This document shows positions 8,601-61,820 of a DNA stretch of 64,000 nt, one piece after another (within the stretch, counting starts at the first letter, position 1; each line of letters starts with the position of its first letter). The DNA is from Harmothoe impar (taxonomy: Eukaryota > Annelida > Polychaeta > Phyllodocida > Polynoidae). The stretch is taken from assembly GCA_947462335.1 (NCBI GenBank), contig OX381709.1, forward strand, positions 65,960,609 to 66,024,608, written 5' to 3'. The position numbers were made by a program, and so were the translations under genes. The notes beneath the pieces are model-generated. The model saw nothing but the letters and a program-made list of their open reading frames with translations. It was not told the DNA's origin and searched no databases.

Positions 8601-8845
8601 AAATGTAGGTGTATATATAGTTCTATCATGGTTCGCTATGCATCTCCTATTGAAAACAATGGACCAACATTCAGGGTGTTGGTCAGAGGACCAACACCAT
8701 GCTCTGACGTCATTAGAGCAAGTTGCCTGGCAACGTGGGCATGTTGCCGTGCAACATGACATGGCCATGGCAACGTCACAAGTGCGACATCACAAAACAA
8801 GATGGCGGAGATGTAAAAAATTACGATCTCTTTTCTGATGCTTCG

Positions 8846-9329
8846 TGTAGGGGCATGATATTACATATTAATCTCATACACGGTATTTCCGGGTAACGTC
8901 TGTTTACTCGGCTTCTCCACCTGGAGCTAGTGCACACAGTTCCCGGGAGAGGGCGCAGGTCCTCTTCGGGTGACCGTGTGCCGCTCTCAGGTGGGCGGCC
9001 GACCCACCCACCTGGCCACGTGATCTAAGAGCCGGTGTTATATAAGACCCATGTGTTTACCTGGAACGGCAGTCAGTGCAGGCCCGACTGACGAGAGACT
9101 TCACATGTCCAACCGTGCGGACAGAGTTGTATGCTAAGAGTTGTATACTGACCGTTTCCTCTATTTATAGAGAAACCTGATCTACCTGTGTGTATTAATT
9201 CTACACTGATCGTTCCCTAGTAAAGGAACTAGAGTTGTTATTCTTGTGAATAAAGACAGATATATTCTCGCACCTGGAAACTGCCGTGATCGTTGTTCTT
9301 TAACCTAGAGTAAACTACGAACCACCACA
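8846..9329 (+). repeat. 5' LTR (484 bp)
   Basis: The LTR starts TGTAGGGGCATGAT and ends ACCACCACA. It matches the 3' LTR at all but four positions I can find: ATTAC/ACTAC near 8860, CTCGG/CTCAG near 8909, GGAAACT/GGACACT near 9279 and TAAAC/TTAAC near 9311. U3 holds an inverted repeat CAGGTGGG (8989-8996) / CCCACCTG (9007-9014), an E-box CACGTG and a TATA box; R holds an AATAAA signal at 9249-9254. Confidence 0.96.
9038..9076 (+). promoter_or_regulatory. LTR promoter: TATA box and initiator
   Basis: TTATATAAG at 9038-9046 is followed about 35 nt downstream by GTCAGTG (A at 9075), which resembles a TCAGT-type initiator. This places the probable start of the genomic RNA and the U3/R boundary near 9075. 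The start site is inferred from spacing only. Confidence 0.65.
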
Positions 9330-9330
9330 C

Positions 9331-9343
9331 TGGTGCCGTGACC
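9331..9343 (+). other. Primer-binding site
   Basis: TGGTGCCGTGACC begins one nucleotide after the LTR end. The initial TGG is complementary to the 3' CCA of a tRNA, as for reverse-transcription primers. I could not match the rest to a specific tRNA from memory. Confidence 0.8.
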
Positions 9344-9448
9344 AGTAGCAGTGAAGGTAGCAGAACAAGCTAGTTGTTCGAGAATATGTTCGGGTTATAC
9401 TGAACAGGAAGTCCTTGAGTGGACAGGCAGTCCTTTAGTGGACGGACA

Positions 9449-11989
9449 ATGGCTACCGGTGGTAGCCTGGGCGGCTCTGGCCCAGAGCTGAGTGAAGGGG
9501 AGTTGGAATCAACTCGCCTGGAGGTGCCAGGGATGGACCCTGGGGAGGGCTTGAAGCCAGAGCAGAAGAAGAGGAAATTGCAGGATCTTTCCTGGGTGGA
9601 ACCCTATGTAGGGGATGAGAGATTCCAGAGGGAATATGACGAGCGTTTGGCTCGGGAAGAGGATGACCTCTATTGGGAGAATGTCCGATTGGACAAGCAG
9701 TCAATGGAAGATCAGTATGCTGCATTGACTGAGGAATTGACTTCCCTGGTAAAAGAAAGGGACGAGATCCTCTCTGAGAATCAGAGGGTAAAAGGAACTC
9801 TGATAGAAGAGAGAGAACGGTTGATAGAGGACAACCGGTATATGAAAAAGAAGGTTGCTCAGGAATCGCATGAATACCAAAAGATTCAGGCAAAGGTTGC
9901 TGAGAACCAGAAGGAGAATGACCATTCAGAATCTCTTAAGGAGAGGTATGAGAGGGAGTTGAAAAAATACTCTAGAGAATGGTATGCCCTGAAGAAGGGG
10001 ACAGAAGAGCTTGAGAAGGGCAGAGACCAGCTGGTCAAAGATAACGAATCCACCAGGATGCAAATCCTGGAGGAAACGGAAGAGTTAGAAAGGAAACGGA
10101 AAGCTGAGGTAGAAGCTGTCTGTTCCCTGGAAGCCAGAAAAACGCTCCTACGGGGTGAATTATCAAAGGCATTGGAAAAACAGGGGAAGGAACAGGTTCC
10201 AGCTGTCAGGCCGGAAACTGTTCCGGATAGTACTCCTACTACTAGTAAGGGGGAAGCATTACCTCAATTCGATCCATTTATTAATGATAATGGATTGAGG
10301 AATGTGGAAGACTCTGTGTATAAAAACAGAGAGAAAGATTCAAGGAGAGTGAATGTTACCGGGCGCTCTCTTGGATGGGAACCAGTTAATCATGCCAGTA
10401 ATGGTCCGGTTAACAGGGAAATGTCTCCAGAGGAGGAAGTGTCTCGACATTATAAAAATAAATTTCGAGATGAAGTGGTGAACCATAGTTATGGCTCATT
10501 GAACCCCTTTGCGGGAGATGACCCGGCTCTATATGGGAATCCGGGAGGTTATGATAGCAAGGGTAATTATAGGTATTGCCCAGATGCAACTTATTCGTAC
10601 CCACCTCCGGCCACGGAAACACACTCGGGAATCAATAAAGATCCTGAGATTAGGCCGAGGGATAGGATGAATAAGGGGACCCAACCGGGAACAAAGGGAA
10701 GGTCAAACCCGGTGCATAAAAACACTGAGGGACTGTCAGGCTATCAAGGCCCACGCTTTGATGAGGGTTCAGAATCTGAATCAGATAAATCATCTGACGA
10801 TGTACCCAAGAGAAAGGTTCCTTTGAACCGGCGGGTCACAATGACCCCGGCGGAGCACCGATTACATAATCGAGACCCCGCCATAGGTAATTTGGGACTA
10901 GATTGCTCTAGCCGAGGTCAAGACGGTACAGACCTGCTAGCTTGGAGTAGACGCATGTCGGGTCAATTAGTGCATTCTAATTATGCCGCTAAAAGAACTG
11001 CACGTGTGACTAAGCCTTACAGGGGTTTACGACCCTGGAAGGAAGAATATCAATCACTTCTAGATGATTGTAAGTACAATTGCTGGAACAAGGAGGAATC
11101 CTTGGGAGCTTTTGTGATATGGTTGAGTGACGGGCCGGGTAAGATAGTGGTTGAAGAATGGAGGGACACTTACGGGCCGGAAGCTACATACGACCAGCTG
11201 GAAGTATTAGCTTGTTATACCTTTGGGAAAATGGTGACAGTAGATCACTGGACTCTGTTTCAGAGAAGAACGCAGAAACCAAAGGAATCTGCTAAAATTT
11301 TTGGGCTGGAATTGCAGCGATTATTGCGGCAGGCTAGGCCAGAATGGAGTAGGGATGCTGAATATTACATAGAATCCCTATTTGTAAGATTTATTAGTGG
11401 ATTAAGTGATCCCGAACATGCTAAAGTTTGTGGTAGAGCTTGGGAAGCTGGGTCTTCCCTAGCAGATTTGTTCATGGCGATTGATCAACATGACAAGAAG
11501 AAGATACTGTTGGCTGGTATGATACCCGCTAATAGGGGGCAGCGCGTCTCTGGAATTGAACATTCCTTAGATGGAGACGATTCTTCCGCGGAAGAATCTG
11601 AAGGGGAGGAGAGAGTAGACGCCCTTAAATTCAAGGGTCGACAGAAATCTAACTCAACCCCAGCTTCCGGGAAACTTCCTAGTAACAAAGGTTATTCTGA
11701 AACCCCCCGGAAACCCGACATTCGGGAGCCTCAGACTGAACCCAGTCAGAAAACCCAGACCCCGGAGACGACCACTCCGGATAAAACAAATGCGTCAGGA
11801 AACTCATTAAATACCTTAATGGAGTCCATGATTAAACGCATGAACGAGGTGTTTGATAATCAAACCAGGCGCCGCCCTAGGGTCGATCGTAACACCGTCC
11901 AGTGTTACAGATGTCAAGTCAAAGGGCACTTTGCATCTGAATGCAAAGCCGAGAAACCTGTTTTAAGAAGTGAGGTTTCGGGAAATTAG
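9449..11989 (+). CDS. gag: Gag polyprotein, long coiled-coil type
   Basis: Structural protein expected to build the cytoplasmic virus-like particle. I start it at the ATG at 9449, giving 846 residues; the frame opens slightly upstream without an ATG. Residues about 80-260 are rich in E/K/R with regular hydrophobic spacing, indicating a long coiled coil. About 265-480 is a low-complexity linker. About 510-680 (PWKEEY through VRFISGLSDPEHAKV) is a capsid-like helical region. A CCHC zinc knuckle CYRCQVKGHFASEC (C-x2-C-x4-H-x4-C) near the C-terminus binds RNA in this family. Twice the length of many gypsy Gags, mainly because of the N-terminal coiled coil. It ends TAG right after a slippery heptamer, so Pol is made by frameshifting. 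Confidence 0.93.
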   Translation: MATGGSLGGSGPELSEGELESTRLEVPGMDPGEGLKPEQKKRKLQDLSWVEPYVGDERFQREYDERLAREEDDLYWENVRLDKQSMEDQYAALTEELTSLVKERDEILSENQRVKGTLIEERERLIEDNRYMKKKVAQESHEYQKIQAKVAENQKENDHSESLKERYERELKKYSREWYALKKGTEELEKGRDQLVKDNESTRMQILEETEELERKRKAEVEAVCSLEARKTLLRGELSKALEKQGKEQVPAVRPETVPDSTPTTSKGEALPQFDPFINDNGLRNVEDSVYKNREKDSRRVNVTGRSLGWEPVNHASNGPVNREMSPEEEVSRHYKNKFRDEVVNHSYGSLNPFAGDDPALYGNPGGYDSKGNYRYCPDATYSYPPPATETHSGINKDPEIRPRDRMNKGTQPGTKGRSNPVHKNTEGLSGYQGPRFDEGSESESDKSSDDVPKRKVPLNRRVTMTPAEHRLHNRDPAIGNLGLDCSSRGQDGTDLLAWSRRMSGQLVHSNYAAKRTARVTKPYRGLRPWKEEYQSLLDDCKYNCWNKEESLGAFVIWLSDGPGKIVVEEWRDTYGPEATYDQLEVLACYTFGKMVTVDHWTLFQRRTQKPKESAKIFGLELQRLLRQARPEWSRDAEYYIESLFVRFISGLSDPEHAKVCGRAWEAGSSLADLFMAIDQHDKKKILLAGMIPANRGQRVSGIEHSLDGDDSSAEESEGEERVDALKFKGRQKSNSTPASGKLPSNKGYSETPRKPDIREPQTEPSQKTQTPETTTPDKTNASGNSLNTLMESMIKRMNEVFDNQTRRRPRVDRNTVQCYRCQVKGHFASECKAEKPVLRSEVSGN

Positions 11990-12024
11990 AGGGGGTTACC
12001 GGGGATGGCAGGACGGTAACCCCT
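11980..12024 (+). promoter_or_regulatory. Programmed -1 ribosomal frameshift signal (gag-pol)
   Basis: The heptamer GGGAAAT at 11980-11986 sits in the gag frame as G GGA AAT, the canonical X XXY YYZ form, and the gag stop TAG follows at once (11987-11989). A -1 slip enters the open pol frame, which is open from 11974. Five nucleotides after the heptamer begins a perfect 9-bp stem, GGGGTTACC (11992-12000) with GGTAACCCC (12015-12023), enclosing a 14-nt loop. Heptamer, spacer and stem have the spacing of known frameshift stimulators. Seen directly; efficiency is unknown. Confidence 0.9.
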
Positions 12025-14472
12025 GAGGAAATATGTCAGATTATCACCGACGTTGGCGGTGAAGATTCATTAGCAGTGAATGCGTCCAGCAAGAAGGGAG
12101 ATGGGACCGTACATCCCGGAAACCATGAGGCTGGGGAGACTGGTACAACAGGCGCCCAGGGGTGCGCGTATGGGAAACCTAGTGCCAGTTTAGAGGAGTC
12201 AAAAACCAAAGAGTTGGTTAAGGTTGGAGGAACCAGGCTTCCCCCGGGTCATCCTTGTCTGGAACACCTGAAAGGATGTGGATTCGACCTGGGCACTGAT
12301 AGTGACCTTCACCGGTTTACTAGGAATCCCTCAGTAACTGATGGGAAGAGGTGGTACGTTTCCTGTTCTGTACAAGGAAAGACTGGGGAGTTTCTTATGG
12401 ATACTGGAGCTAGCCACTCCATGGTCTCTAAGAGATTCATCAGCTTATTGCCGAATATGTGTGAGAACCTCACAATGAGGGTAAACGCATGTACGGCCGA
12501 TGGTACCAGAATGAGGACATTTGGACGGACTTTTCTGATAATCTCTGTGGCCGGGAAAGAATTTGTTTGGGCCCCGACCATAGCTGAGATTGAAGATGAT
12601 GGTATTCTTGGTTTGGATTTTGCGGCGCTTTTCGGTGCGACTTTGAATCCGAAAAGTGGGAAGTTGAAAATTGAATACCCGTATGATATGACCATACTCT
12701 GTAAGTTGAGAGTGATAAGTAGTGTCGCTAGTGTGGCACAGACTGTGAAGATTCCCCCGGGGATGACCTGTGACGTGTTAGTCAGTTCAGGGAGGCTAAT
12801 CCAGAAAGGATTAGCGGTAATCGAGCCGGATATGGCTGTATTATCCCGGAAGGGATTGGAATCTGCGGATACCCTAGTAGGGAATTCCAGATGGACAGTG
12901 ACACCCATTTCCAACCCCGGAAACTCCACAGTATATCTTGAGAAAGGCACTGAAGTTGGGAAAGTGATACTTGCGGAGGCAGTCACCGGTAGCCACCAAG
13001 ACCTGAGGTTAGAAGAAGGAGGGGAAGAGGAATTGCATGAAGAGTTAACTAAGTTGTTAACAGGATCGTCCATAACGGATGAGAATGATCAGGAAGCCCT
13101 AAAAGCTATGCTGAAGAGATGCAGGCAAGCTTTTGCGGCCCCAGGGGAACCCCTGGGGAGAACCAATAAGGTATTGCATGAAATTAAAACCGGGGATAAC
13201 CCCGCTTTTAAGATTCCTTATAGGAGATTACCCCTCAAAAAGAAGATTGTAGCTGAGGAAGAGATAGCGAAAATGCTGAAGGATAATGTTATTGTTCCCA
13301 GCATGAGCCCTTGGTCCTCCCCTGTGTGTATGGTAACCAAGAAGGATGGTAGCATACGGTTCTGTATTGATTACCGGAAACTGAATGGGTTGACTAAAAA
13401 GAACTCCTATCCTCTTCCTAGGATAGATGAGACGATTGATTCCCTGGGAGGGAATGAATGGTTTTGTACCCTGGATTTACAGTCCGGGTATTGGCAAGTA
13501 GGCATGAAGCCTGAAGATATGGAGAAAACCGCGTTTTCCAGCCATATTGGGTTGTTCGAATATAAGGTAATGCCGTTCGGGTTATGTAACGCGCCGGCCA
13601 CCTTTGAAGCCATGATGGAGACGCTGTTAAGTGATTTATTATGGCGGAAATGTCTAGTTTACTTGGATGACGTAATAGTGTTTGGAAAGACCTTTGCGGA
13701 TTGTTTAAGTAATTTGGAAGAAGTCTTAAACCGAATCACGTCTAACGGTCTCAAATTGAAACCAAAGAAATGCAATCTGTTTAAGAAGGATATTAACTAC
13801 CTAGGGCGGATTATTTCCACCGAGGGGGTTAAGGCGGATCCGGAAAAGATCAGGAGTGTGACTGAATGGGAAGTCCCCAGGGGTCCTAAAGATGTGCGAT
13901 CCTTTCTAGGATTCTGCTCATACTATAGGGATTTCCTGCCGGGGTATTCCCGGGTAGCCTATCCGATCCAGTGTTTGTCACACTGGACACCCGGAAATAG
14001 GAAGGAGGAGTTCCCATGGGGGAGGGAACAGGACACAGCTTTCTTAGCAATAAAAAAGTTGTTTGTAGAGACCCCGGTGTTAAAGTATCCCACCCCGGAT
14101 GGTCATTTTGTATTGGATACAGATGCTAGTAATGAGAGTATTGGGGCCGCCCTCAGTCAAGTCCAAGACGGAGTGGAGGTTCCCATTGCCTTTGCTAGTA
14201 ATACTATGAGTAAGACACAGCGTAATTACTGTACCACTAAAAGGGAATTGTTGGCTGTGATAGTTTATACTAAGAAGTTCAAACATTTCCTTTGGGGGTC
14301 CGATTTTACGCTAAGAACAGATCATTCCTCTTTGAGATGGTTATTGAATTTCAAAGATGCGGAAGGAATGATTGGACGTTGGCTAGCACACCTTTCCGAG
14401 TTCGGTTTGGAGCAAAGTCAGATCCAGCATAGAGCTGGGGTAAAGCATGTAAATGCTGATGCACTTTCCTGA
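11986..14472 (+). CDS. pol: Pol part 1: protease, reverse transcriptase, RNase H
   Basis: The frame is entered by the -1 shift and has no ATG near its start. It contains, in order, an aspartic protease with FLMDTGASHSMV (active-site DTG, near 12400), a reverse transcriptase with conserved blocks including LDLQSGYWQV, MPFGLCNAP and the catalytic YLDD (near 13660), and a Ty3-type RNase H with DTDASNESIGAAL, TKRELLAV and RTDHSSL segments. These mature enzymes process Gag-Pol and copy the RNA into cDNA inside the particle. The frame stops at TGA 14470-14472, immediately after the RNase H end (NADALS), where related elements normally run on into integrase; the same frame is open again directly after the stop. 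Confidence 0.95.
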   Translation, partial: LEGVTGDGRTVTPEEICQIITDVGGEDSLAVNASSKKGDGTVHPGNHEAGETGTTGAQGCAYGKPSASLEESKTKELVKVGGTRLPPGHPCLEHLKGCGFDLGTDSDLHRFTRNPSVTDGKRWYVSCSVQGKTGEFLMDTGASHSMVSKRFISLLPNMCENLTMRVNACTADGTRMRTFGRTFLIISVAGKEFVWAPTIAEIEDDGILGLDFAALFGATLNPKSGKLKIEYPYDMTILCKLRVISSVASVAQTVKIPPGMTCDVLVSSGRLIQKGLAVIEPDMAVLSRKGLESADTLVGNSRWTVTPISNPGNSTVYLEKGTEVGKVILAEAVTGSHQDLRLEEGGEEELHEELTKLLTGSSITDENDQEALKAMLKRCRQAFAAPGEPLGRTNKVLHEIKTGDNPAFKIPYRRLPLKKKIVAEEEIAKMLKDNVIVPSMSPWSSPVCMVTKKDGSIRFCIDYRKLNGLTKKNSYPLPRIDETIDSLGGNEWFCTLDLQSGYWQVGMKPEDMEKTAFSSHIGLFEYKVMPFGLCNAPATFEAMMETLLSDLLWRKCLVYLDDVIVFGKTFADCLSNLEEVLNRITSNGLKLKPKKCNLFKKDINYLGRIISTEGVKADPEKIRSVTEWEVPRGPKDVRSFLGFCSYYRDFLPGYSRVAYPIQCLSHWTPGNRKEEFPWGREQDTAFLAIKKLFVETPVLKYPTPDGHFVLDTDASNESIGAALSQVQDGVEVPIAFASNTMSKTQRNYCTTKRELLAVIVYTKKFKHFLWGSDFTLRTDHSSLRWLLNFKDAEGMIGRWLAHLSEFGLEQSQIQHRAGVKHVNADALS
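14470..14472 (+). other. In-frame TGA between RNase H and integrase
   Basis: This single codon interrupts an otherwise continuous pol frame. The base context (TGA followed by CG, within a CpG-rich element) is what a C-to-T change at a methylated CpG would leave. A leaky, regulatory stop is the alternative, but the strong readthrough context TGA-CTA is not present. The copy is therefore probably not autonomous. Confidence 0.75.
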
Positions 14473-16197
14473 CGTCCTATCAGGAAGTGCGAAAACACCA
14501 ACTGTGATGACTGTGGTCAGCATGAAGCTGTCATAGCCGGAGCAAGGATTCCCTTTGAGATCAAGGGAACTGGGGTTCTGGAGTGGTCCATGGGAACCAT
14601 CCGGAAATTCCAGGAAAAGGATCCTAACCTTAGCCGGTTGTTGGTATTGTTACCTAGGAAGATACGGCCCCCGCGGCCTGAGATTTCCCTGGAGAATCGG
14701 GAAATGAGACGACTAATAGCTCAATGGGCAGAGCTAGAGGTCCAGAGCGGGATCATCTACCGGTGGAAGATTAATTCATCCGGTAGGAGAGTCCGGCAAG
14801 TGGTAATACCTTCCGGTATGAGGAGGGATGTTATGTATTATTGCCATGGACACCTGACCAGTGGACATTTCGGAAAAAAGCGTTCCCTGGAACGTCTGAA
14901 AAGGAGATATTACTGGCCAGGGATGAGTAGTGATCTATTAAGATGGATTGCTACTTGCCCGGATTGTTGTAAAAACAAACCTGGGCCTGGGATGGGTAAA
15001 ATGCCTTTGTCCCAGGAGTTGTTTGGTGTAAGATTTGCGCGAGTCGCCATAGATATTATCAGTGGGTTTAAAACTACCCCTGAGGGTAATACTTGTATGA
15101 TGGTCGTCACTGACTATTATACTAAGTATACGAGAGTGTTTCCATTAGCGGATCACAAAGCAGCAACCTGTGCAAAAGCTTTTGTTAAAGGTTGGGTATT
15201 GCATCTTGGGGTTCCCCTAATGATGCATAGTGACCAAGGTCGGGAATTTGAATCTGATCTTTGGCAGGAAATGTGTCACCGACTGGCGATTTGTAAGACG
15301 AGAACAAATCCCTATCGGCCACAAAGTGATGGAATGGTTGAGAGATTCAATCGTACGTTGATTCAGGTGTTGAAATCCCTGGTGAATGATAGAATGGATG
15401 ACTGGGATGAGCAGTGTGATTATGTATGCCATGCATATAATAGCACTGTCCATTCTAGTACTTCCTGTTCCCCGAATCTATTAGTTTTCGGGGAAGATTT
15501 GATAATGCCCGCGGATCTGGTATTCGGGGTGGTTGGGATGAACCCGGAAACCCCCTGCCATGTGATGTTTGTGGAGTCATTAAGAGATCAATTCAAATAT
15601 GCTTATGAATTGGTGAGAACTGAACTGCAGAAGAATGCTACCTGGCAGAAGACCGGCTATGATCTAGGCCTTAAGCCGCGACGATTCAAAGTTGGTGATC
15701 AGGTAGTAAGATTACATGAGCCGTTATCGACTCTGAAACTTGCTAGTAATTGGGACGGCCCCTTTGTGGTTACCCGCATAGTAAGTGACAGTACTGTAGT
15801 GATACGTTCATTACAAGGAAAGATGTATAAATCTAATGTAGCTCGACTAAGAGAGTGGAAGGGGAGAGATTTGTCCCTGGACTCGTATGAGTTGGAAGTT
15901 GATACTTTGATAGAGGAAAGTGAACAGCGGAAATTAGTGAAGGAACCTCCCCGGAAACGCGGGAGGCCGCGGAAGGAGGTTTCCCGGAAACTAATGGTGC
16001 AGAAGCCCGTCATCCCAAAAAGATCCGGGAAGAAGGCGGCTAATAAAGTCTCGCTGGCTGAAGGGAAAAGGACCCGGAAGAGTGTGGTTAAGGCTAAATC
16101 CACTCTGGAAAAAGCGTGTCCTAGAACCAGGTCTAATGTTATGCCTAAAAACATAAGACGCAGTCCCCGGTTACTAGCCAGGGACGGTATAACCTAA
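14473..16197 (+). CDS. pol: Pol part 2: integrase (after an in-frame stop)
   Basis: Same frame as the RT part, separated only by TGA 14470-14472. It has an HHCC zinc-binding domain (HGHLTSGHFGKKRSLERL then CPDCC, about 14850-14970), a DDE catalytic core (D of VAIDIIS, D of HSDQGREF, E of VERFNRT), a GPF-type module (NWDGPFVVTRI) and a basic tail with an AT-hook-like core KRGRPRKE. There is no clear chromodomain. Integrase inserts the cDNA with a staggered cut, matching the 5-bp duplication. Because of the stop, this copy can make integrase only through readthrough or internal initiation (an in-frame ATG is at 14590). The last codon before TAA is at 16192-16194. Confidence 0.92.
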   Translation, partial: RPIRKCENTNCDDCGQHEAVIAGARIPFEIKGTGVLEWSMGTIRKFQEKDPNLSRLLVLLPRKIRPPRPEISLENREMRRLIAQWAELEVQSGIIYRWKINSSGRRVRQVVIPSGMRRDVMYYCHGHLTSGHFGKKRSLERLKRRYYWPGMSSDLLRWIATCPDCCKNKPGPGMGKMPLSQELFGVRFARVAIDIISGFKTTPEGNTCMMVVTDYYTKYTRVFPLADHKAATCAKAFVKGWVLHLGVPLMMHSDQGREFESDLWQEMCHRLAICKTRTNPYRPQSDGMVERFNRTLIQVLKSLVNDRMDDWDEQCDYVCHAYNSTVHSSTSCSPNLLVFGEDLIMPADLVFGVVGMNPETPCHVMFVESLRDQFKYAYELVRTELQKNATWQKTGYDLGLKPRRFKVGDQVVRLHEPLSTLKLASNWDGPFVVTRIVSDSTVVIRSLQGKMYKSNVARLREWKGRDLSLDSYELEVDTLIEESEQRKLVKEPPRKRGRPRKEVSRKLMVQKPVIPKRSGKKAANKVSLAEGKRTRKSVVKAKSTLEKACPRTRSNVMPKNIRRSPRLLARDGIT

Positions 16198-16517
16198 GCC
16201 GGTACACAACGAGTGTGGTGTCCTGTAATCTTGTTAAATATTTAAATGTTGTAATCAGTTATGTGTGGAAGTAAGTACGGTCGGAATGATCGTGATAGTC
16301 CCCCTGTCAAGGATCCCATGGGTGATGGACGGATAATCCGGTGAATGTGCTTTATTATGCCATTCATATATATTTCATTGATACTCTCGACGAGTTGACA
16401 GAGCGTAAGGATTAACACGTGGAATAAGGGTACCTGTTTACAATTGAACGCGCGGTGACCTGGTTCCAAGGAACTGGGTCACGGGACGCGCGGGGTTGCG
16501 CATGCGCGGTGGCGCGC
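16198..16517 (+). promoter_or_regulatory. Noncoding spacer with a 44-nt palindrome before ORF3
   Basis: Between the integrase stop and ORF3 lies noncoding DNA that turns sharply GC/CpG-rich after 16440. At 16449-16492 a palindrome is visible: CGCGCG, then GTGACCTGGTTCC (16455-16467), loop AA, GGAACTGGGTCAC (16470-16482, two G-T wobbles), then a GGGA bulge and CGCGCG (16487-16492). The core GGTGACC also occurs in the LTR U3 (near 8969). It sits about 27 bp upstream of a TATA box, so it is either a regulator-binding site or an RNA hairpin. Confidence 0.6.
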
Positions 16518-16553
16518 CTTATATAAGGCCCGCGGAGCGGCGGGAATCGCCAG
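16518..16553 (+). promoter_or_regulatory. Putative internal TATA promoter for ORF3
   Basis: TTATATAAGGCCC at 16519-16531 closely resembles the LTR TATA segment TTATATAAGACCC at 9038-9050. About 32 nt downstream is CCAGTT (A at 16552), an acceptable initiator. No ATG occurs between this point and the ORF3 ATG at 16676, which has A at -3. TATA, spacing and first-AUG logic together suggest a separate ORF3 mRNA ending at the LTR polyadenylation signal. Confidence 0.6.
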
Positions 16554-16675
16554 TTGGGGTTGAGAGGCGGTCCAGAGCAGACGTGAGAGCTCGGACACGA
16601 CCATTGTCGCTGTGGGGAGGTGGATCCCCTATAAATCCATCAACAAACACTTTTCTTGAGTGTGACACAAAAAAC

Positions 16676-19600
16676 ATGTCCTCCGAGACAGACCACCAAC
16701 AGGTGGACCCTCTTCAAGAGGGCGACTCCGCTAGCGGAGGAAATGAGGTTGTTAATCAACCTGACCTCGTGGACCAGGAATCTCTGGATTTCCTGGGACA
16801 AGGGGAGATAATGGACGTCGACACTGACTCTCAGTCACCGCTTCGCCCTGCTAATGTCGCCGCCAATTACTTGGAAGGTCTAGACATTGAGGCCATCAGC
16901 CCTGCTGACGGTCGCGCTGATACCGGTGAAGCTGAGTATCAGGATCCGGGTCTATTGTACCATGGAGAACCGCCGGCGGACGTTGAAAAACCCCGCCCGG
17001 CAGTACCAACACTAGGAGGCTTCATGTCCAATTACGATGGACGTGAAGTAGAACTGCACGAGGACGTGCTAAGACTCACGGCGGAGGGAGCTCCCCGCCG
17101 GATAGACCCGCTCACGAGCCAGGCGATATTGCTCTTCCTGTTAGTGGAGGAGCAGGAGGAGATGCCCCCGGACTGGTTTGTGTACTGGGAGGCACTCCAG
17201 AAAGGACTACGCGTATGCTACTGCTTACGACGAGCTGTCTTCGATTTGCATATCGCAGACATAAAGCGGTTAATGCCCGCACTCCCAATTCTGTCTCTGG
17301 ACCCGAATTGTGGAGTTGCCGGGATGTTGTTGACTGGGGTCAACAGATACCGGGCGCGAATCGGGAAACTCCGAGAACCGAAAACCCGGAAGGAGTACGA
17401 GATTGCTGCCGCTAATACGCAGGGGGTAGTTTCGTATGTCCTGGATGTAGCCACTATTGAAGACTACATGGATTCTCACAATGTCAAACGAGATATTGCC
17501 ATATCTTGTTTGATTGACGAGGCGGTTCGTACAGTACGAACCCGATCTTCCAGTGCAGAGGAGAAGGCGCGAATAAAAGCGCTGAAAGCCACACCTAGGG
17601 GGCGCGGCAGTAAAGGTGAGAGGGGGGCCTCAAACCGGTCAAGCTCGGCCGACAGTAACCAGTCGGACGAGTTTGTCCAGGAGAGAGGACGTCAGGCTCG
17701 CCGGAACGAGAAGGCAAGATTAGCTAACTTGCCGGACTCTGTATTAGCAGAGGGATTACCGGAACAACCTTCCGGAGGACAGCCCGTTATTCCCCGGGCT
17801 GAGGAGGTAACGGATGAGGCTATGGACATAAACGAAGCCAATACTCCGGCGCCCTCCAACACCAACACCACCACCACCACCCCGGCCCTTGTGGCAGATA
17901 TGACCGCCGCCGCGGGAGCAGCGGCCGCCGTGGCGGCTGCGCTGGTATTTAATCCAGCACGTCTCAGCCCTCTCCGTAGTCCGGCTCATTCGGATCCGGA
18001 AGAGGGAGAGGTTCCGGCTAACGCTGAGGAACCAGGAAATGCCCCAGAGGACCCCATCCCGCCTAATGACGTGATGAGGCGGATCTGGCAGAACGCGAAC
18101 AATAAGTTCCGCGTGTTTATTCCCAATTCATGGGAACAGTGTCCGATTGGTCCTACCAATTTCGGATGTCCACTTGCGATCAACTGTAAAGGTCAGAGTG
18201 ACGATGAGGATTGGATCCGGAATACCCCCCGGGACCGTCCTCCGTCTGCTTTTTATCAGCAGTGGCTAGATCAACTCAGGATCCTGCCGGATACTTACTA
18301 TAGTAAGGAGCAGAAAGAAAAACTTCTTTTTGCGATTAACCGCTGGTATAGCCAACGGGAAAGAAACTGGTGCCCATTCGCTACGTGTGTAAACACGATT
18401 GGCACAGACAGAACCGTGTTTGTAACAAAGCAACGGTTTCTGCGACACCTCTGTGAAAATCACATGCACCACTGTGTGGTGTACCACTGTGATATCACAG
18501 TAGGTAGGGAGTCCCAGCTGTGTAACGGGTGTTTAGAACCCCGGAGAGGTGAGCTCATGCGCCACATGAAGGATTGCCATAATATGGGAATCAGTGTAGC
18601 TCGCAATCGTGTGAATGCGCTACATGATGCCGTATGTGACCAGTACAAGTCACTCACGGAGGAACAGAAGGCTAAGATCCGGCCGGCAACTCCCTTCTAC
18701 TGCGAGGTCGCAGATGGGAAGTTCAAAGCCAGGATTGCCAGAGTGGACGGACGACATAAGTTCGCCATGAATGACGAGGAATATACGGTGTTATGCACTA
18801 CCCGTACTTCCCGCAGAGGTGGCGGTAGTTTCCGTCAACCGGAAACCCGGGGTAGTTCCCGGGGGAAGAGCCGGTCCGCCCGCGACCGCTCTCGATCTCC
18901 TGCGGTCTCACCTGGACCAAAACGGAGACATGCCGGATCCAATTTGGAGGAACTCGATAATTCCTACTATGGGATTTATCATGCCCCGGAAGGTCGCGAC
19001 TATTATCGCGAGTATCCAGACCCGCTGTTTACAGACCGGAAAGATCGGAAACGTGATTCCGGTGGTCAAGCGACGGCGGCGACTAACATGGATTACCGTT
19101 CTAGACGTCTGAGCAGTTCAGACAGTGCCAACAGTCAACCTGACTGTGGAGGTGCCCGGCCTAAAGAACCGGCTACCAGAACAAAGGCTTCCCTGCCTTT
19201 GACGTACCATCTGGGGACAACTGCAAAGCTAACCCCCAGGGACGTCCGGTCACCCACTACCCCAACTCGGGATATGCAGGGCTTGACCGTGAAAGCTGAA
19301 CCAAAATCACTAATATCAGTGGTAACGCCTCGGGGCATAACTGTCCCGAAGGCTGCAGCGGTTGCGAAAGCGCCGCAAGCGGATGTTAAACCCGTGATTC
19401 CTGCAGCCCAGGAGCCGGTTGTCATCCAGCCAGTCGCGGGCACCTCCCGCACGGAAACTACCGGTGGCGTAAAGTTAAAATACGTCCCGATAGTCAACTA
19501 CTTCTCTCGGGAAGAGAAAGCGAGCTGCGAAGTGGGACAGAGAATTGTAACGGAATTCCAGGAGTCCCAACGCGAGCTGGCGGTGGAGTATAACACCAAG

Positions 19601-19894
19601 ATGTTAGGCCTGTTCACGCATGGCCTAAAGATTGCCCACCGGGAGGAGAAAGCATTGGTCGCTGTCGGCAATGCTGACTACTTGGCTAAAAAGTCAAGGG
19701 AAGCTGCTTCAGGCCAAAAGACTGCTGAGGCCGCCGCAGGGTTCGTTCAGCAAGAGAACGAGAAGTTAACCAAACGGTTACAGGACATGAACGTAAAATT
19801 TTACGGGGTGTTCGGCGTGACTATCGATACCTGGGATGGCACAACTGAGCACGCGCTTGCTTTAATGAGGGCAAGAGATGAACCTTTAGGTTAA
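16676..19894 (+). CDS. ORF3: large zinc-finger/RS-type protein of unknown function
   Basis: I start at the ATG at 16676 (1,072 residues); the frame is open earlier, but that part lies across the putative TATA box. The N-terminus is acidic. A folded-looking part (about 17060-17540) contains LTSQAILLFLLVEEQEEM and several helices, then a basic stretch and a P/A/T-rich linker. A Cys/His cluster at 18371-18580 reads as two C2H2-like units, C-x4-C-x19-H-x4-H and C-x2-C-x10-H-x4-H. An SR/basic segment follows (SRGKSRSARDRSRSP), likely nuclear-targeting, and the last 120 residues are helical. There is no signal peptide or transmembrane segment, so it is not an envelope. I do not recognise the family. 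The intact frame in a recent copy suggests it was under selection; a nucleic-acid-binding regulator or accessory Gag-like protein is inference. Confidence 0.85.
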   Translation: MSSETDHQQVDPLQEGDSASGGNEVVNQPDLVDQESLDFLGQGEIMDVDTDSQSPLRPANVAANYLEGLDIEAISPADGRADTGEAEYQDPGLLYHGEPPADVEKPRPAVPTLGGFMSNYDGREVELHEDVLRLTAEGAPRRIDPLTSQAILLFLLVEEQEEMPPDWFVYWEALQKGLRVCYCLRRAVFDLHIADIKRLMPALPILSLDPNCGVAGMLLTGVNRYRARIGKLREPKTRKEYEIAAANTQGVVSYVLDVATIEDYMDSHNVKRDIAISCLIDEAVRTVRTRSSSAEEKARIKALKATPRGRGSKGERGASNRSSSADSNQSDEFVQERGRQARRNEKARLANLPDSVLAEGLPEQPSGGQPVIPRAEEVTDEAMDINEANTPAPSNTNTTTTTPALVADMTAAAGAAAAVAAALVFNPARLSPLRSPAHSDPEEGEVPANAEEPGNAPEDPIPPNDVMRRIWQNANNKFRVFIPNSWEQCPIGPTNFGCPLAINCKGQSDDEDWIRNTPRDRPPSAFYQQWLDQLRILPDTYYSKEQKEKLLFAINRWYSQRERNWCPFATCVNTIGTDRTVFVTKQRFLRHLCENHMHHCVVYHCDITVGRESQLCNGCLEPRRGELMRHMKDCHNMGISVARNRVNALHDAVCDQYKSLTEEQKAKIRPATPFYCEVADGKFKARIARVDGRHKFAMNDEEYTVLCTTRTSRRGGGSFRQPETRGSSRGKSRSARDRSRSPAVSPGPKRRHAGSNLEELDNSYYGIYHAPEGRDYYREYPDPLFTDRKDRKRDSGGQATAATNMDYRSRRLSSSDSANSQPDCGGARPKEPATRTKASLPLTYHLGTTAKLTPRDVRSPTTPTRDMQGLTVKAEPKSLISVVTPRGITVPKAAAVAKAPQADVKPVIPAAQEPVVIQPVAGTSRTETTGGVKLKYVPIVNYFSREEKASCEVGQRIVTEFQESQRELAVEYNTKMLGLFTHGLKIAHREEKALVAVGNADYLAKKSREAASGQKTAEAAAGFVQQENEKLTKRLQDMNVKFYGVFGVTIDTWDGTTEHALALMRARDEPLG

Positions 19895-21358
19895 AAAGAC
19901 TAATAGAAGGTTCTGAGTCTATTTCTAATTCTTTTAGGAATAGAGGAGGGAACTATAATAGTTTCCGGATAGATTAATTGTTGTTTCATTTAATCTGACG
20001 TCATAAATTGTTTATGACGGGGTATCCCTTTTGAGGGGAGGGGCATCTTTTTAGATGCATATGGATCAACGCGGGGGGAACCTTCCGTGGAAGCTCTGGA
20101 CTTACCTAACTACTCAACTCTCAACTATAGCCTACCGATGGGGAATCAGGACTCCACCGGGAAGCTACCAAACTAACGTCCCTGAAACTAACTTTTGGGA
20201 TACGTTACCATGATGTGTTCCTGATACTATTATGCTGAGTTATAAACTGTTCCCGTCCAAAGGATTACGTGTCAAACAGACAATGCTCGTGGTTCCAGAT
20301 CTACTTATATATTTCATGAACATTCCTGGAGCTAGGATTACGTGTTAAACGGACAGTACTCGTGGTTTCCAGCCGGATTATAGTTATATATGTCATGAAC
20401 TTTACTGGAGCGAGGACGGGATACTTATCGAGCTGTATACATATGAACTTACCTTCGGGTGATATTTATCCAAGAAACAGTATTAAGAAGAGGAGAGCAC
20501 CTCACTCATTCGTCTATTAGAAGCGGAGAGCACCTTGACCACAACTAGATCACCAGTAAGCTATATTTAATTGTAAGGGTTTCCGGGTACACTGCCAGGT
20601 TACTCATTAAAACGTTTTTAATATATAAAATATATCATTATTATGTGATACATATCACCTCAGGTGTTCCAATAAGGTATTCTCATATTTACCTTATGAA
20701 TCGGGTTTCATAATATGCTATATATGAAGATTGTATGATCTGATAACCTAGGAAACGTGGCTACCCGTAATGTTTATATGAAGTCGTTAAGACTATGTGT
20801 ATATACTAAATATACCGCCAGGTATTGTCGTGTGTGTTGACTCTGTTGTATGTTGCGAGAGATATTAATACTCCGGTTATATAATCGGATTACCCGGCTT
20901 AAAACAAAGGCTGTGGTTACTGTTATCCATTGTGTGAATGTTTTCATTAAATCACAAATCAATGTAAGACGCTGGTGGTTGTGAGTCCTTATCAGGACTG
21001 GTTTTTAATAACTTTTCTGTTCAACTTAAATATATACACACCCCACGCGCATTTTTTTAAATAACCGAGTAAGGAAACTTCATAAGGAAGTCATATCGAA
21101 ATGTGTCAAGCCGTTCGATTGTATGTATGATATTATATTCACTTGTCATAAAACATACCTAAATCATCTATTATGGTTGCTATTACAGTGTAATGCCATA
21201 TTTATATTGAGTTTGATGATCTCGCTTGTGTAGTATGTCGTGTTAATATGTTACGCCCCTAGTTACTGTATAGACAATAACTGTAAAGTCGTTGTTCTAA
21301 AAGGTTTTCTATGTACTAGGAAAACAGTATATATGTTCGTTACCACCTAGTTTTGTCT
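19895..21358 (+). other. 3' noncoding region of the LTR element
   Basis: About 1.46 kb without coding capacity. It includes a two-unit direct repeat with 73-bp spacing (GGATTACGTGT at 20262 and 20335, each followed by a CTCGTGGTT segment and a TATAT..TCATGAAC segment), and a shorter pair (GGAGAGCACCT near 20493 and 20526). The tail becomes AT-rich. It could hold the ORF3 3' UTR or cis signals such as packaging or insulator sites; nothing proves a role. Confidence 0.6.
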
Positions 21359-21369
21359 AGGGGGGGTAG
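21359..21369 (+). other. Polypurine tract
   Basis: AGGGGGGGTAG lies immediately before the 3' LTR. A G-rich purine run in this place primes plus-strand DNA synthesis in LTR retroelements. Confidence 0.85.
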
Positions 21370-21853
21370 TGTAGGGGCATGATACTACATATTAATCTCA
21401 TACACGGTATTTCCGGGTAACGTCTGTTTACTCAGCTTCTCCACCTGGAGCTAGTGCACACAGTTCCCGGGAGAGGGCGCAGGTCCTCTTCGGGTGACCG
21501 TGTGCCGCTCTCAGGTGGGCGGCCGACCCACCCACCTGGCCACGTGATCTAAGAGCCGGTGTTATATAAGACCCATGTGTTTACCTGGAACGGCAGTCAG
21601 TGCAGGCCCGACTGACGAGAGACTTCACATGTCCAACCGTGCGGACAGAGTTGTATGCTAAGAGTTGTATACTGACCGTTTCCTCTATTTATAGAGAAAC
21701 CTGATCTACCTGTGTGTATTAATTCTACACTGATCGTTCCCTAGTAAAGGAACTAGAGTTGTTATTCTTGTGAATAAAGACAGATATATTCTCGCACCTG
21801 GACACTGCCGTGATCGTTGTTCTTTAACCTAGAGTTAACTACGAACCACCACA
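21370..21853 (+). repeat. 3' LTR (484 bp) with polyadenylation signal
   Basis: Same length as the 5' LTR with four mismatches by eye. AATAAA at 21773-21778 is the expected poly(A) signal for element transcripts. The LTR is followed directly by the 3' copy of the target duplication, CTTCG (21854-21858). Confidence 0.96.
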
Positions 21854-21942
21854 CTTCGTTTCAACATAATTATCCTAAAGCATTGTTAAATGTATACTAA
21901 GTTTAAAATGCATTATTTGATGGTAAGACGATGATAGAACCA

Positions 21943-27109: not shown

Positions 27110-27900
27110 GTAGGACGGGGAAGGGAGGATGGGATACAGGCAGTGAGACAGGAAGGGAGACAGGCAGGTAGGCAGAGAGACAGGATGGGGAGACTGCCAG
27201 GCAGGCAGAGTCAGGATGGGGAGACAGCCAGGCAGGCAGAAGGAGGGAGGCAAGTAGGTAGAGAGACGGGATGGGGAGGGAGGCAGGTAGGCAGAGAGAC
27301 GGGATGGGGAGGGAGGCAGGTAGGCAGAGAGATGGGATGGGGCGGGAGGCAGGTAGGCAGAGAGATGGGATGGGGCGGGAGGCAGGTAAGCAGAGAGACG
27401 GGATGGGGAGGGAGGCAGATAGGCAGAGAGACGGGATGGGGAGGGAGGCAGGTAGGCAGAGAGACGGGATGGGGAGGGAGGCAGGTAGGCAGAGAGACGG
27501 GATGGGGAGGGAGGCAGGTAGGCAGAGAGACGGGATGGGGAGGGAGGCAGATAGGCAGAGAGACGGGATGGGTGTGGGAGGCAGATCTATAGGTGGAGAG
27601 ACAGGATGGGTGTGGGAGGCAGATCTATAGGTGGAGAGGCGGGATGTGGAGACAGCCAGGTAGGCAAAGAGACGGGATGGGGAGACAGCCAGGTAGGCGG
27701 AGAGACGGGATGGGGAGAAAGGCAGGTAGGCAGAGAGACGGGATGGGGGGGAGCAGGCAAGCAGTGAGATGGGATGGGGAGACAGGCAGGTAAGCGGAGA
27801 GACGGGACTGGGAGACACACAGGTATGCAGGGAGACGGGATGGGGAGACAGCCAGGCAGATTAGGAGGTAGTGAGACAGGCAAGCAAGTAGACAGGGAGA
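27110..27900. repeat. 33-bp G-rich minisatellite
   Basis: A tandem array with a 33-bp unit approximating GGAGGCAGGTAGGCAGAGAG followed by ACGGGATGGGGAG; best-ordered between 27,245 and 27,570 and more divergent outside, with AGACAGCCAGG variants. Since 33 is a multiple of three, open reading frames arise on both strands (an 11-residue repeat), but these are artefacts of the array. Confidence 0.9.
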
Positions 27901-56600: not shown

Positions 56601-57396
56601 TTTTCCAAATTGGTGTTTGTATGCATATCCACCAGGTGGAGCTAGGGTGCCCCTGAACATATTCTGAAGGTTCTCAAAGCATCCACAGGGGGGCAGAGAG
56701 TTTGTATCTAGCTCCCTTAAACATGCACTGATATAGGAGTGTAAATAACATATCACATAGCAATCTGGGGGAGTTTCCATTGAAAATATAATTTAACACC
56801 ATAGAAATATTGTAGTTCATATGGATGTAAGAGTCCACATCTTGACAAGTCTACAATATAATGTCGTTCTCTGTATCTCTTTTGACAACGTAGTCCTGGA
56901 GTAATGGGCATTTGCCACTTCCCATACATTGATTCATATACCATATAAGTATCCTTAGCAGAATTTTACGATCACATAATGACATTATATACATGACTAT
57001 TGTATATTCATTATTCGATGTAACTGTTATTTTGCAGTACGTTCTTGAAATCTTCATTTTGTTTCTTCCCAGGCCTCAATATGGATGTTATTATAATTAT
57101 ACCCCTTCAGATGAGTGGTCCCTAAACCAAAGGGTACAGGTTCCTTGAGGGCAAAGATCGACATGTTTTACCAGAACTGTAAACGAAAGACGGCAGATGG
57201 TAAAAATTCATATATATATTTTGTAGAAGTCAAATTGGCCTGCACTTCTGTTCATACCACCGCCTGAGGCCCCCCTGATTCCAAGGCCAACAGTCATAGC
57301 AAGTCGGAATGCTCTTATCGTCGGGTCAGCTTGCTACGGATTTGCTTGGTAGCTCTACCCCTGTAGAGATTGCATGTAAGTGAAGAGCAGTTTTAT

Positions 57397-57467
57397 AGAA
57401 TTATCGGGAATCGAACCCAAATCGCTCAGCCCAGAATTGAGAATGCTAACCGCTACACCACGATTCC
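57397..57467 (-). repeat. tRNA-Gln-like pseudogene or SINE head
   Basis: On the minus strand the 71-nt sequence begins GGAATCGTGGTGTAGCGGTT and has GGGTTCGATTCCC as T arm and a TTCTGGG anticodon loop (CTG, Gln). Overall it follows animal tRNA-Gln, but the acceptor stem pairs at only about four of seven positions and the anticodon stem has a mismatch. I therefore call it tRNA-derived rather than a working tRNA gene. Confidence 0.6.
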
Positions 57468-59394: not shown

Positions 59395-61820
59395 ATGTCT
59401 GTTGTCAACCCCCTCCGTGCACTCACTACCTGCGCATTCCTCCTCCTGGGTTTGCTCCAGGGTGGGGCTGCGGCGGAGGAGGCCGTCTACATGCTAACCT
59501 TCTACACAGGCTCGTGGTTCATGGGCGGCACGGACGCCAACCTGGTGTTCAGACTGGCAGGTACTGGAGGAGACTCGGGCCTCACCTGGGTGCGGCCTGG
59601 AGGCAGTCAGCTGGAGGTGGGAGGGGTGGACACCTTCTCCGTCACCACAGACTATGGACCCATCACAAGGGTAAGCCATATTTAAAGTGAATTAAAATTA
59701 TTACAGTCAACTCCCTCTATTGCGACCATCTTGGGACTATCTAAAAGTGGTCGTAATGGCGAGGTGGTCGCAGTAGGGGAGAGTTTGGTATAGTACATTT
59801 TTGTATAATTAATTGCCGAGACTTCTTTGGACATACATTCTTGGAAATATTTTACCCCCGGGGGTTAGATTCTATAAAATAAAATAAAAACAATTTTGGA
59901 CATGTGTCACTTCCTTGGAGATGTGTAACTTGTTTGGAAAAGCAAACGATTTTAGGCTTCTGCATTTTCGATACTGTTGGAGCAAACTTTAAACAAGGCA
60001 GATACCCTGTTCTAACACCTGTTGCCATAGTAGTAATCATCCTGACAGACACATTTTGAGCCTCCAAAGGCTTTGCCAAAGGTGTTCTCATATATGTCCA
60101 ATTTTCAAACCAGGCAGTAAGTCCGGTACACATTGACTGAGATTTTAAAGTTAATCAATTGTGTTTCCAGGTGATGATTAGTCACGACAACGCGGGCCAG
60201 GGTCCGTCATGGCACTTCTACAAGCTCGTCATCCGGGACTTGGTACGTCAGCAGACATTGACGTACGTGTGTGACTGCTGGGTGCCAGACGACATTGAGA
60301 CGCCCTCTCACGTCTTCACAGAGAACCTGGACGAGTGTAGCTCCAGCCCCTGCCTCAACAACGCCTCCTGCGTGGACGGTCTGCGCAGCTTCCGGTGTGA
60401 ATGTGCCCCCGGCTGGACAGGGCCGCGCTGTGAGGCGGATCTGGATGAGTGTGAGACTGGTGGTGCCCCCTGGTGTGAGAATGGCGGTGTGTGCCAGAAC
60501 GAGGCTCCAGGGGCAACATGTGACTGCCCACCAAGCTACACCGGACATCGGTGTGAGGCTGATGTGGATGAGTGTCTCATGGTGTCACAGAACCGCTGTA
60601 TGAATGATGGAGCATGCGTCAACACAGCACCGGGCTTCCACTGCGCATGTCAGCCGGGGTACACTGGTCTCCACTGTGAGAATGACGTCGACGAGTGTAT
60701 GACGTCACAACCATGCTATAACAATGCCACATGTATCAATTCCTATGGTGGTTTTACCTGTGAGTGTTCAGAAGGCTGGAAGGGACTGAACTGTTCTTTG
60801 GATGTTGATGAGTGCTCCACTGAGCTGCTCATGGATGCTGGGAACAGCTCCTGTGAGGGAAACTCAACCTGTGCCTATGCCGTATGTATGAACAACTCAA
60901 CCTGCGTCAACACTAATGGTGGATATCAGTGTATTTGCCACCCTGGATTCAATGGACTGCGCTGTGACATCGACATCAATGAATGTCTGAGCAATGCCAA
61001 TGACACAGCCTGGTGTGAAAACGGGGCAACATGTGAGAATATGTTTGGAGGCTGGGAATGTGTCTGTCCTGATGGTTACTATGGCAACAGGTGTGAGAAC
61101 GATGTAGATGAGTGTGAATCCGCTGAGGAGGTGTGTTTACACGGGGGTCTGTGTAACAACACCTTTGGAGGGTACAACTGTACCTGTCCCCCAGGTTACA
61201 GCGGACTGAGGTGTGAGAATGACGTAGATCATTGTGTGTCACAGCCCTGTCTCAACGGGGGCACATGTCATGATGACGTCACGTCATACTCCTGTTCCTG
61301 TGCCCCTGGTTACCATGGTCACCACTGTCAGAATGAGACCAATGAATGTGCCTCTGATCCTTGTGCTAGTGGTGCCACCTGCGTAGATGCTGTGGACCAG
61401 TACATGTGCATCTGTCCACCTGGCGATAAGGGAGAGAACTGCGACCCCAGCACCACGGCGTCCCCTAGTGGAGAAGAGGAGACTACCATTGGGGACGATT
61501 TCAATCTTGCTGGGCCAAGAAATGTCGAGCCTTTCATTATCAAGGAACTGAATAACATGACCCTTAAAGGCGAGGACCCTGAGGCTGAAATAACCACTGA
61601 CATCCTATTAGTGATGGGTACCAAACAAGTCACCACTTCTACTACAATGGAGGGAGGAAGTAATGTTACCATTGCAAAGGGAGAGGCGAGTGATATCCCC
61701 AGTACCACTATTTCTGATAAGGAGGGCGTCGTTAACAGTGAAGCTGGGTTGGGCAAGTCGGTATTAGGAGGATGTCTTTATTTAAGTGTTGTATTGGCCA
61801 TATCATTGATTATGAATTAA
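59395..61820 (+). CDS. Secreted PLAT domain plus nine EGF repeats, likely GPI-anchored
   Basis: Two exons, 59395-59670 and 60171-61820 (phase 0, GT-AG), give 641 residues. I chose the ATG at 59395 because it opens a signal peptide (ALTTCAFLLLGLLQGG). Residues about 30-135 form a PLAT/LH2-like beta-sandwich (YMLTFYTGSW, GPSWHFYKLVIRDL). From about 144 to 516 come nine EGF modules, most with the calcium-binding start D-V-D-E-C; the eighth reads DVDHC and the fifth has an insertion with extra Cys. A Ser/Thr-rich, N-glycosylated stalk follows, and the protein ends in a hydrophobic stretch (GGCLYLSVVLAISLIMN) with no cytoplasmic tail, typical of a GPI signal. Role: probably cell-surface adhesion or matrix contact; no ligand can be inferred. 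It is divergent from the lyase gene, about 5 kb away. Confidence 0.93.
59706..59784. repeat. Short TIR element in the PLAT-EGF intron
   Basis: CTCCCTCTATTGCGACCA at the left is mirrored by TGGTCGCAGTAGGGGAG at the right with two mismatches, and a further TGGTCGTAATGGCGA lies between them. It is about 79 bp, noncoding and probably a MITE fragment. Confidence 0.6.

Follow-up and report, generated by a model that had tools for sequence, protein, structure and literature searches.

Regulatory accessory genes are usually seen as a retroviral trait, and those of long terminal repeat (LTR) retrotransposons are mostly orphans of unknown role. In foamy viruses, an internal promoter situated inside env drives the gene of the transactivator Tas downstream. 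The subject of this study is a Ty3/gypsy-type LTR element of 13 kb in the polynoid annelid Harmothoe impar, which spans positions 8846-21853 of a 64,000-nucleotide stretch (the window; GenBank assembly GCA_947462335.1, contig OX381709.1, positions 65,960,609 to 66,024,608 of the forward strand). Judged by its sequence and its relatives, the third open reading frame (ORF) of this element, ORF3, follows gag and pol as a long-established gene of a Ty3/gypsy lineage, is not an envelope gene, and is subject to strong purifying selection.

Non-envelope ORFs after pol are a kind already known from plants, rotifers, and Caenorhabditis elegans (PMC7264820, PMC11963269, PMC5408684, PMC10309623; the statements here draw on passages of the papers cited). 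The plant Ty3/gypsy element Grande carries gene23, an accessory gene between pol and the 3′ LTR with its own promoter and a nuclear protein product. For gene23 and like plant ORFs, related genes occur in related elements, and the passages report no database match (PMC7264820, PMC11963269). Cer1 of C. elegans, a Gypsy/Ty3 element, encodes CERV, a nuclear protein needed for export of the unspliced genomic RNA (PMC10309623). LTR elements of bdelloid rotifers bear non-envelope ORF3s of GDSL and DEDDy types (PMC5408684). Troyka is a lineage of LTR retroelements from aquatic animals that has been discussed as separate from the standard gypsy groups; it has ends of the form CG...CG, target duplications of 3 bp, and a CX2CX8-10HX4C knuckle, lacks GPF/Y, and mostly encodes Gag-Pol in a single ORF (PMC12440569). 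Hallmarks of Ty3/gypsy elements are TG...CA LTR ends, a target duplication of 4-6 bp, and GPF/Y in the integrase (PMC12440569). No description of a gene such as ORF3 was found in the literature covered, which included passages of annelid and mollusc LTR surveys and had most subscription papers and Repbase-type entries outside its scope. The first-pass annotation of the window knew of no standard Ty3/gypsy class with this protein. The protein family is unmatched in the databases searched; as an arrangement, non-envelope ORFs after pol are established.

The ORF3 protein

ORF3 (16676..19894, plus strand) lies after integrase and before the 3′ LTR and consists of a single open frame of 1,072 codons from its ATG, encoding a protein of 1,072 aa (P0001). 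The long intact frame that the first-pass annotation had placed here is confirmed. The same frame is open upstream of the ATG, with 1,132 codons counted from a TTG at 16496. The protein begins with an acidic N-terminus. A zinc-finger domain (residues 461-715, 18056..18820) has a low ratio of nonsynonymous to synonymous substitution rates (dN/dS), is homologous in the proteins P0002, P0124, and P0125, and contains the motif SDDEDW (18197-18214) and two C2H2-like units, C566/C571...H591/H596 (18371-18463) and C605/C616...H630/H635 (18488-18580). Beyond it lie an RS/basic tract (residues about 728-751, 18857..18928) and a charged, helical-looking C-terminal segment that ends FG...WDG (19448..19891) and appears coiled-coil-like by eye. 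All are read on the plus strand, and the zinc units, RS/basic segment, and C-terminus recorded in the earlier annotation are all present.

A hydropathy scan, which is not a dedicated transmembrane predictor, found neither a hydrophobic N-terminus nor a convincing transmembrane segment in ORF3. The peak 19-residue hydropathy is 1.76 and falls in an Ala-rich linker within residues 404-427. One minimal R-x-[KR]-R match is present, at residue 808. The annotated lack of envelope features therefore stands for the N-terminus and the membrane segment, with this single match as a qualification for the furin-like site. An errantivirus with env was rejected as a class, since neither the Pfam nor the hydropathy scan shows envelope features and the RxRR-type match is the only one. 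The label "errantivirus-like" describes the position of ORF3 only.

Database searches returned little. A Pfam scan of the whole of P0001 at E up to 1 gave no family, and a scan of its pieces at E up to 10 gave one chance-level match (HPTransfase, E 0.2). Searches of PDB and NCBIfam with ORF3 gave chance-level matches only, and scans of viral contigs gave no relatives. Because Pfam reports no domain, ORF3 is neither of the GDSL nor of the DEDDy type, and a known enzymatic ORF3 family, one outcome that would have undercut the first-pass annotation, is not what was found. In the protein database, the whole ORF3 and its zinc domain each retrieved one homologue, P0002, which is 45% identical. These searches scored the candidates sharing most words with the query (7,999 for the whole ORF3, 243 for the zinc domain), and since the method requires shared exact words, missing homologues do not show absence elsewhere. 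With pol as the query, 2,280 proteins were retrieved at E up to 1e-30, and the 120 listed are mostly unnamed.

The size, strong conservation, env position, and coiled-coil-like C-terminus of ORF3 would also suit a structural or particle protein, either a second nucleic-acid-binding partner of the capsid or an entry factor of no recognised type. We regard this as rather improbable. The protein has no membrane features of the kind scanned for, its RS/basic tracts and C2H2-like units suggest the nucleus instead, and its Pfam and PDB matches stay at chance level. A nuclear regulator is the reading preferred here.

Copy number and selection

The host genome searched comprises 1.51 Gb in 736 contigs. 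Within it, 577 sites encode the ORF3 motif HMKDCHNMG, and the reversed-pattern control gave 0. With P0001 as the query, 42 of 43 scored copies were without a stop (43 of 7,862 first-look candidates were scored), and a full-length integrase match stood just upstream of ORF3 in all 22 copies fetched with flanks (22/22). P0002 as the query gave 35 copies without a stop among 42 scored (of 6,125 candidates); eight of the copies found in this way were read and are 81-92% identical to P0001.

Strong purifying selection on ORF3 is evident from the comparison of subfamilies. Among the window copy and five subfamily members (15 pairs), dN/dS is 0.11-0.22 at a dS of 0.09-0.77. The zinc-finger domain is the lowest region, at 0.06-0.07 in the four pairs for which regions were compared separately. 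The selected function proposed in the first-pass annotation is borne out by these values, which are well below 1, and by the other copies, in which most sampled frames are open.

Counts within the family were made on 23 copies. In ORF3, singleton differences comprise 23 nonsynonymous (N), 54 synonymous (S), and 1 stop, and shared differences 9 N and 28 S, for a first pN/pS estimate of 0.19 for singletons and 0.14 for shared differences; this estimate points in the same direction but is biased, because the copies are those ranked best by ORF3 protein score. In the integrase of the same copies, singletons comprise 24 N, 21 S, and 1 stop, and shared differences 1 N and 8 S. Frameshifts occur in the integrase of 3 of the 23 copies and a stop in 1, and a stop in ORF3 occurs in 1. 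Of the 22 copies fetched besides the window copy, these 4 with a damaged integrase are L011, L016, and L030 (frameshifts) and L015 (stop).

The claim of selection relies on the subfamily dN/dS together with five copies chosen by position, and not on the 23-copy estimate. The positional sample, chosen to lessen this bias, is the first five ORF3 sites along contig C1, each of which still had to contain an exact 26-base motif. Four of the five copies are free of stops and of net frame changes and give an omega of 0.08-0.12 against the window; the fifth, L041, is decayed, which counts against the overall reading. Given the 577 sites, the low dN/dS, and the open frames in 4/5 positional copies, ORF3 is no accident of one young copy.

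Homologues in diverged elements

Genome contigs searched with an ORF3 alignment gave no match. The search with a pol alignment gave 16 loci, of which two, L044 and L046, were read for ORFs. L044 (JAADFT010000005.1), a contig of 13,374 bp, is recorded under a Calditrichota metagenome-assembled genome (MAG). It amounts to a gypsy-type element, nearly complete and with a terminal overlap of 91 bp, and is very likely eukaryotic DNA within the Calditrichota MAG bin. Its pol is 52% identical to that of the window in the best segment, and P0043, a sequence found within the L044 pol ORF, gives 59% identity over 488 residues of reverse transcriptase (RT)-RNase H. After pol, L044 has an ORF of 1,051 aa (P0124) that is homologous to ORF3. 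L046 (JAHXHI010000345.1), a contig of a MAG named "gamma proteobacterium symbiont of Bathyaustriella thionipta", carries another gypsy-type gag-pol and is probably host DNA; no ORF3 homologue was seen when it was read for ORFs.

P0124 searched against the host genome gave 12 matches among 44 scored, with E from 9e-13 to 3e-8 and all in the zinc-finger region. The one of these that was read, L060, is another element, with an 803-aa ORF3 after integrase and an integrase tail 40% identical to that of the window. Homology was assessed from Smith-Waterman scores, with p values fit from 1,000 shuffles. For the zinc domain, p is 3e-8 for P0001-L060, 5e-15 for P0124-L060, 3e-10 for P0002-L060, and 2e-5 for P0001-P0124. 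For the C-terminus, p is 9e-5 for P0001-L060, 3e-6 for P0002-L060, and 0.02 for P0002-P0124. A point against is that the C-terminal segment of P0124 shows no significant similarity to P0001 or to L060 (p 0.18 in both cases). The four-way alignment has as invariant positions S-D-D-E-x-W, the residues C566, H591, H596, C605, C616, and H630 of P0001, and R623-R624. The motif SDDExW with the two C2H2-like units provides a seed for finding the lineage elsewhere.

Because homologues follow integrase in the deeply diverged L060 and L044, ORF3 is a gene of the lineage and an old one. The Ty3/gypsy lineage that carries it is probably animal, as judged from the EGF-repeat gene at 60159-61820 of the window. 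Copies of the L060 type are 98-100% identical, and 49 of 56 scored were without a stop (of 4,580 candidates). Two or more ORF3 families that lie far apart in sequence thus look to have been active of late in the same genome.

These homologues bear on the proposal that ORF3 is a host gene captured recently and riding in one successful family. LTR elements do make such captures (passages of PMC7264820), and no Pfam homologue of ORF3 was found. Even so, the proposal is very improbable, and as far as the sequences can tell its "recent, one family" form is already contradicted: homologues stand after integrase in elements that share 40-60% identity with the window in their pol pieces. L060, the only one read of the 12 places found with P0124, is an element, and the other 11 may include a host homologue. 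ORF3 is not a capture unique to the window copy, and homologous ORFs stand in related elements of the host genome and of the Calditrichota MAG contig.

The region upstream of ORF3

A conserved non-coding block runs from the pol stop to a TATA box (16198..16525, plus strand) and is the candidate internal promoter of ORF3. In 337 aligned columns, mismatches to the window number 2 in L035, 6 in L034, 5 in L031, 14 in L036, and 26 in L033. In five comparisons with an integrase dS of 0.15-0.30, divergence within the block is 0.6-8% up to the TATA box; directly past it, divergence rises to 7-27%, closer to the synonymous rate. Among the 23 copies, differences per kb are 3.1 in the spacer, 5.0 in ORF3, and 8.8 in the 3′ untranslated region.

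Several short features are placed regularly within the block. The TATA box of the proposed promoter, TATATAAGG, is at 16520..16528 on the plus strand. A 10-mer palindrome, GCGCATGCGC (16498..16507), which we take to resemble an NRF-1 site, lies 22 bp before the TATA box in 9/9 elements (L031-L038 and the window; several are almost identical) and occurs once in the window outside the element, at 7424. No ATG falls between TATA+30 and the ORF3 ATG in any of the nine, and the 300 bp before the TATA box contains 8-9 ATGs. The exact composite of palindrome and TATA box occurs 539 times in the host genome (control 0). On contig C1, 27 of 29 composites are 1.9-2.1 kb before a same-strand ORF3 site, and 27 of 30 ORF3 sites have a composite. 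An imperfect palindrome, GTGACC...GGTCAC, is at 16455..16482, and GGGTCACGGG (16476-16485) recurs in L060, at -198 from the ORF3 ATG there and at -200 in the window. L060 also has TATATAAG at -176 from its ORF3 ATG, with no ATG after it. Together these features suggest that ORF3 probably has its own internal promoter in the conserved block.

Just 3′ of the pol stop is the motif ACACAACGAG (16204..16213, plus strand), which is also in L060 and L044 and is a possible cis element. The window-L044 match extends to 15 bases, where the best of 60 shuffles reached 12. The window-L060 match spans 10 bases, no longer than shuffles give (max 12 and 11), and deserves notice only because the word is the same.

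Some observations weigh against the internal promoter. No TATA-like box is present before ORF3 of L044. The upstream words that L060 shares with the window measure 10 bases, a length that shuffles also reach (max 12); what is notable is only where they lie. Conservation of the block may in part reflect exchange between subfamilies, because integrase dS is also below ORF3 dS. A donor-like GTAAGT at 16271 would suit spliced expression from the LTR. ORF3 could then be expressed, as env and CERV are, by splicing of an LTR transcript, and the block would serve the RNA in packaging, export, or splicing. Consistent with this, the block begins directly past the pol stop, the motif ACACAACGAG common to L060 and L044 sits away from the TATA box, and CERV is produced from a spliced mRNA (passages of PMC10309623). 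We consider splicing an unlikely source of ORF3, if a serious one, since the block ends at the TATA box, set at a constant 22 bp from the palindrome, the sequence drifts beyond it, the first ATG past the TATA box is that of ORF3 in 9/9 elements, and the one pyrimidine-rich acceptor-like AG noticed by eye before the ATG is altered in L033. A promoter within the block is the explanation retained below.

Architecture of the element

The two LTRs (8846..9329 and 21370..21853, plus strand) are 484 bp each and identical at 480/484 positions, in agreement with the nearly identical LTRs of the first-pass annotation. Both have TG...CA ends, and the 5′ LTR has TATATAA at 9039 and CACGTG at 9017. A 5-bp target-site duplication, CTTCG, flanks the element (8841..8845 and 21854-21858; boundaries by eye). 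The primer binding site TGGTGCCGTGAC, read in the sequence at 9331..9342 on the plus strand, is presumably the complement of the tRNA-His 3′ end.

The coding regions are likewise on the plus strand. The gag region (9419..11989, first ATG 9449) encodes a charged heptad-like N-terminus and a CCHC knuckle. The first part of pol (12076..14472) encodes protease, RT, and RNase H and ends at an in-frame TGA (14470-14472), which breaks the pol of the window copy between RNase H and integrase; for this copy, therefore, "young" does not imply autonomous. The integrase part (14590..16197) has the Pfam domains Integrase_H2C2 and rve, the sequence NWDGPF (GPF motif), and an AT-hook-like basic tail.

The order protease-RT-RNase H-integrase between LTRs, the TG...CA ends, the 5-bp duplication, and the GPF of the integrase are those of Metaviridae. 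Other classes were considered and rejected. For a chromovirus, the Pfam scan found no chromodomain, and the pol tail matches AT_hook below the cut-off. Troyka is ruled out by the TG...CA ends, the 5-bp duplication, GPF, and ORF3, and a bdelloid-type enzymatic ORF3 (GDSL/DEDDy) by the finding of 0 Pfam families in P0001, P0002, P0124, and P0125. In the window, P0004, P0009, P0019, L044, and L060, the integrase finishes with an AT-hook-like tract of the GRPRK/RGRP type followed by basic residues of the RRS type. This tail of the lineage is a possible chromatin-targeting tail instead of a chromodomain.

Elsewhere in the window are a 33-bp minisatellite of about 22 copies (27138-27847), of which both strands are open as repetitive ORFs; a long open stretch with at least nine EGF-like repeats (60159-61820), either a host gene exon or a retrocopy; and a tRNA-Gln gene (CTG) on the minus strand (57396-57467).

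Proposed function

We think it moderately probable that ORF3 is transcribed from the internal promoter and that its protein is a nuclear nucleic-acid-binding regulator of the RNA or the transcription of the element. The nuclear nucleic-acid-binding role is proposed because of the C2H2-like units, RS/basic tract, acidic N-terminus, coiled-coil-like C-terminus, and lack of membrane features, and the regulatory role because of the analogy with CERV of Cer1 and gene23 of Grande. Weighing on the other side, the nuclear location is suggested by composition only. In the proposed mechanism, ORF3 would be transcribed from the internal promoter as a separate mRNA ending in the 3′ LTR. The protein would enter the nucleus, multimerise, and bind the RNA or DNA of the element, and, like the product of an early regulatory gene, it would promote production or export of the full-length RNA. 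Among RNA export, transactivation, and anti-silencing, RNA export or stabilisation is our first choice by analogy.

A fuller plan with two promoters, early and late, is put forward more tentatively, as a possibility we lean against. The internal promoter, driven by host factors, would first make the zinc-finger/RS regulator, and the regulator would then activate the gag-pol genome, shield it from silencing, or export it. If true, this would be an independent analogue of foamy-virus Tas and lentiviral Rev in an envelope-less element, with a protein family unmatched in the databases searched.

Whichever role applies, elements that are deeply diverged have retained a large ORF3, which has a conserved candidate promoter of its own and is found at hundreds of sites in a single genome. 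Since two divergent ORF3 families look recently active, the role of a non-envelope third gene is directly testable. The first-pass annotation understated ORF3, which by the sequence comparisons is an old lineage gene and probably has a promoter of its own.

Comparison with known systems

The nearest precedents are gene23 of Grande and CERV of Cer1. Like gene23, ORF3 lies between pol and the 3′ LTR and has homologues in related elements. Gene23 is antisense to gag-pol, whereas ORF3 is in the sense orientation, belongs to a probably animal element, and has C2H2-like units. The promoter and nuclear location are reported for gene23 and proposed for ORF3, and the likeness drawn here is one of description in the passages cited. 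CERV is likewise a large non-envelope ORF that lies after pol and before the 3′ LTR in a Gypsy/Ty3 element. Its mRNA is spliced, and the passages of PMC10309623 mention no CERV zinc finger; here too ORF3 is likened by description. The bdelloid ORF3s also occupy the env position. According to the passages of PMC5408684, they are enzymes confined to particular families and do not occur in the earliest branches; in contrast, Pfam gives no domain for ORF3 of the window, and ORF3 occurs in the deeply diverged elements sampled.

What is new here is the ORF3 protein family, its depth in a probably animal gypsy lineage, and a sense-strand gene with its own candidate promoter. In that last respect the element resembles the foamy viruses, with a candidate second, internal promoter before a downstream, putatively regulatory gene. 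Tas belongs to a retrovirus with env, whereas the element of ORF3 has no envelope gene, and the likeness drawn here is one of plan.

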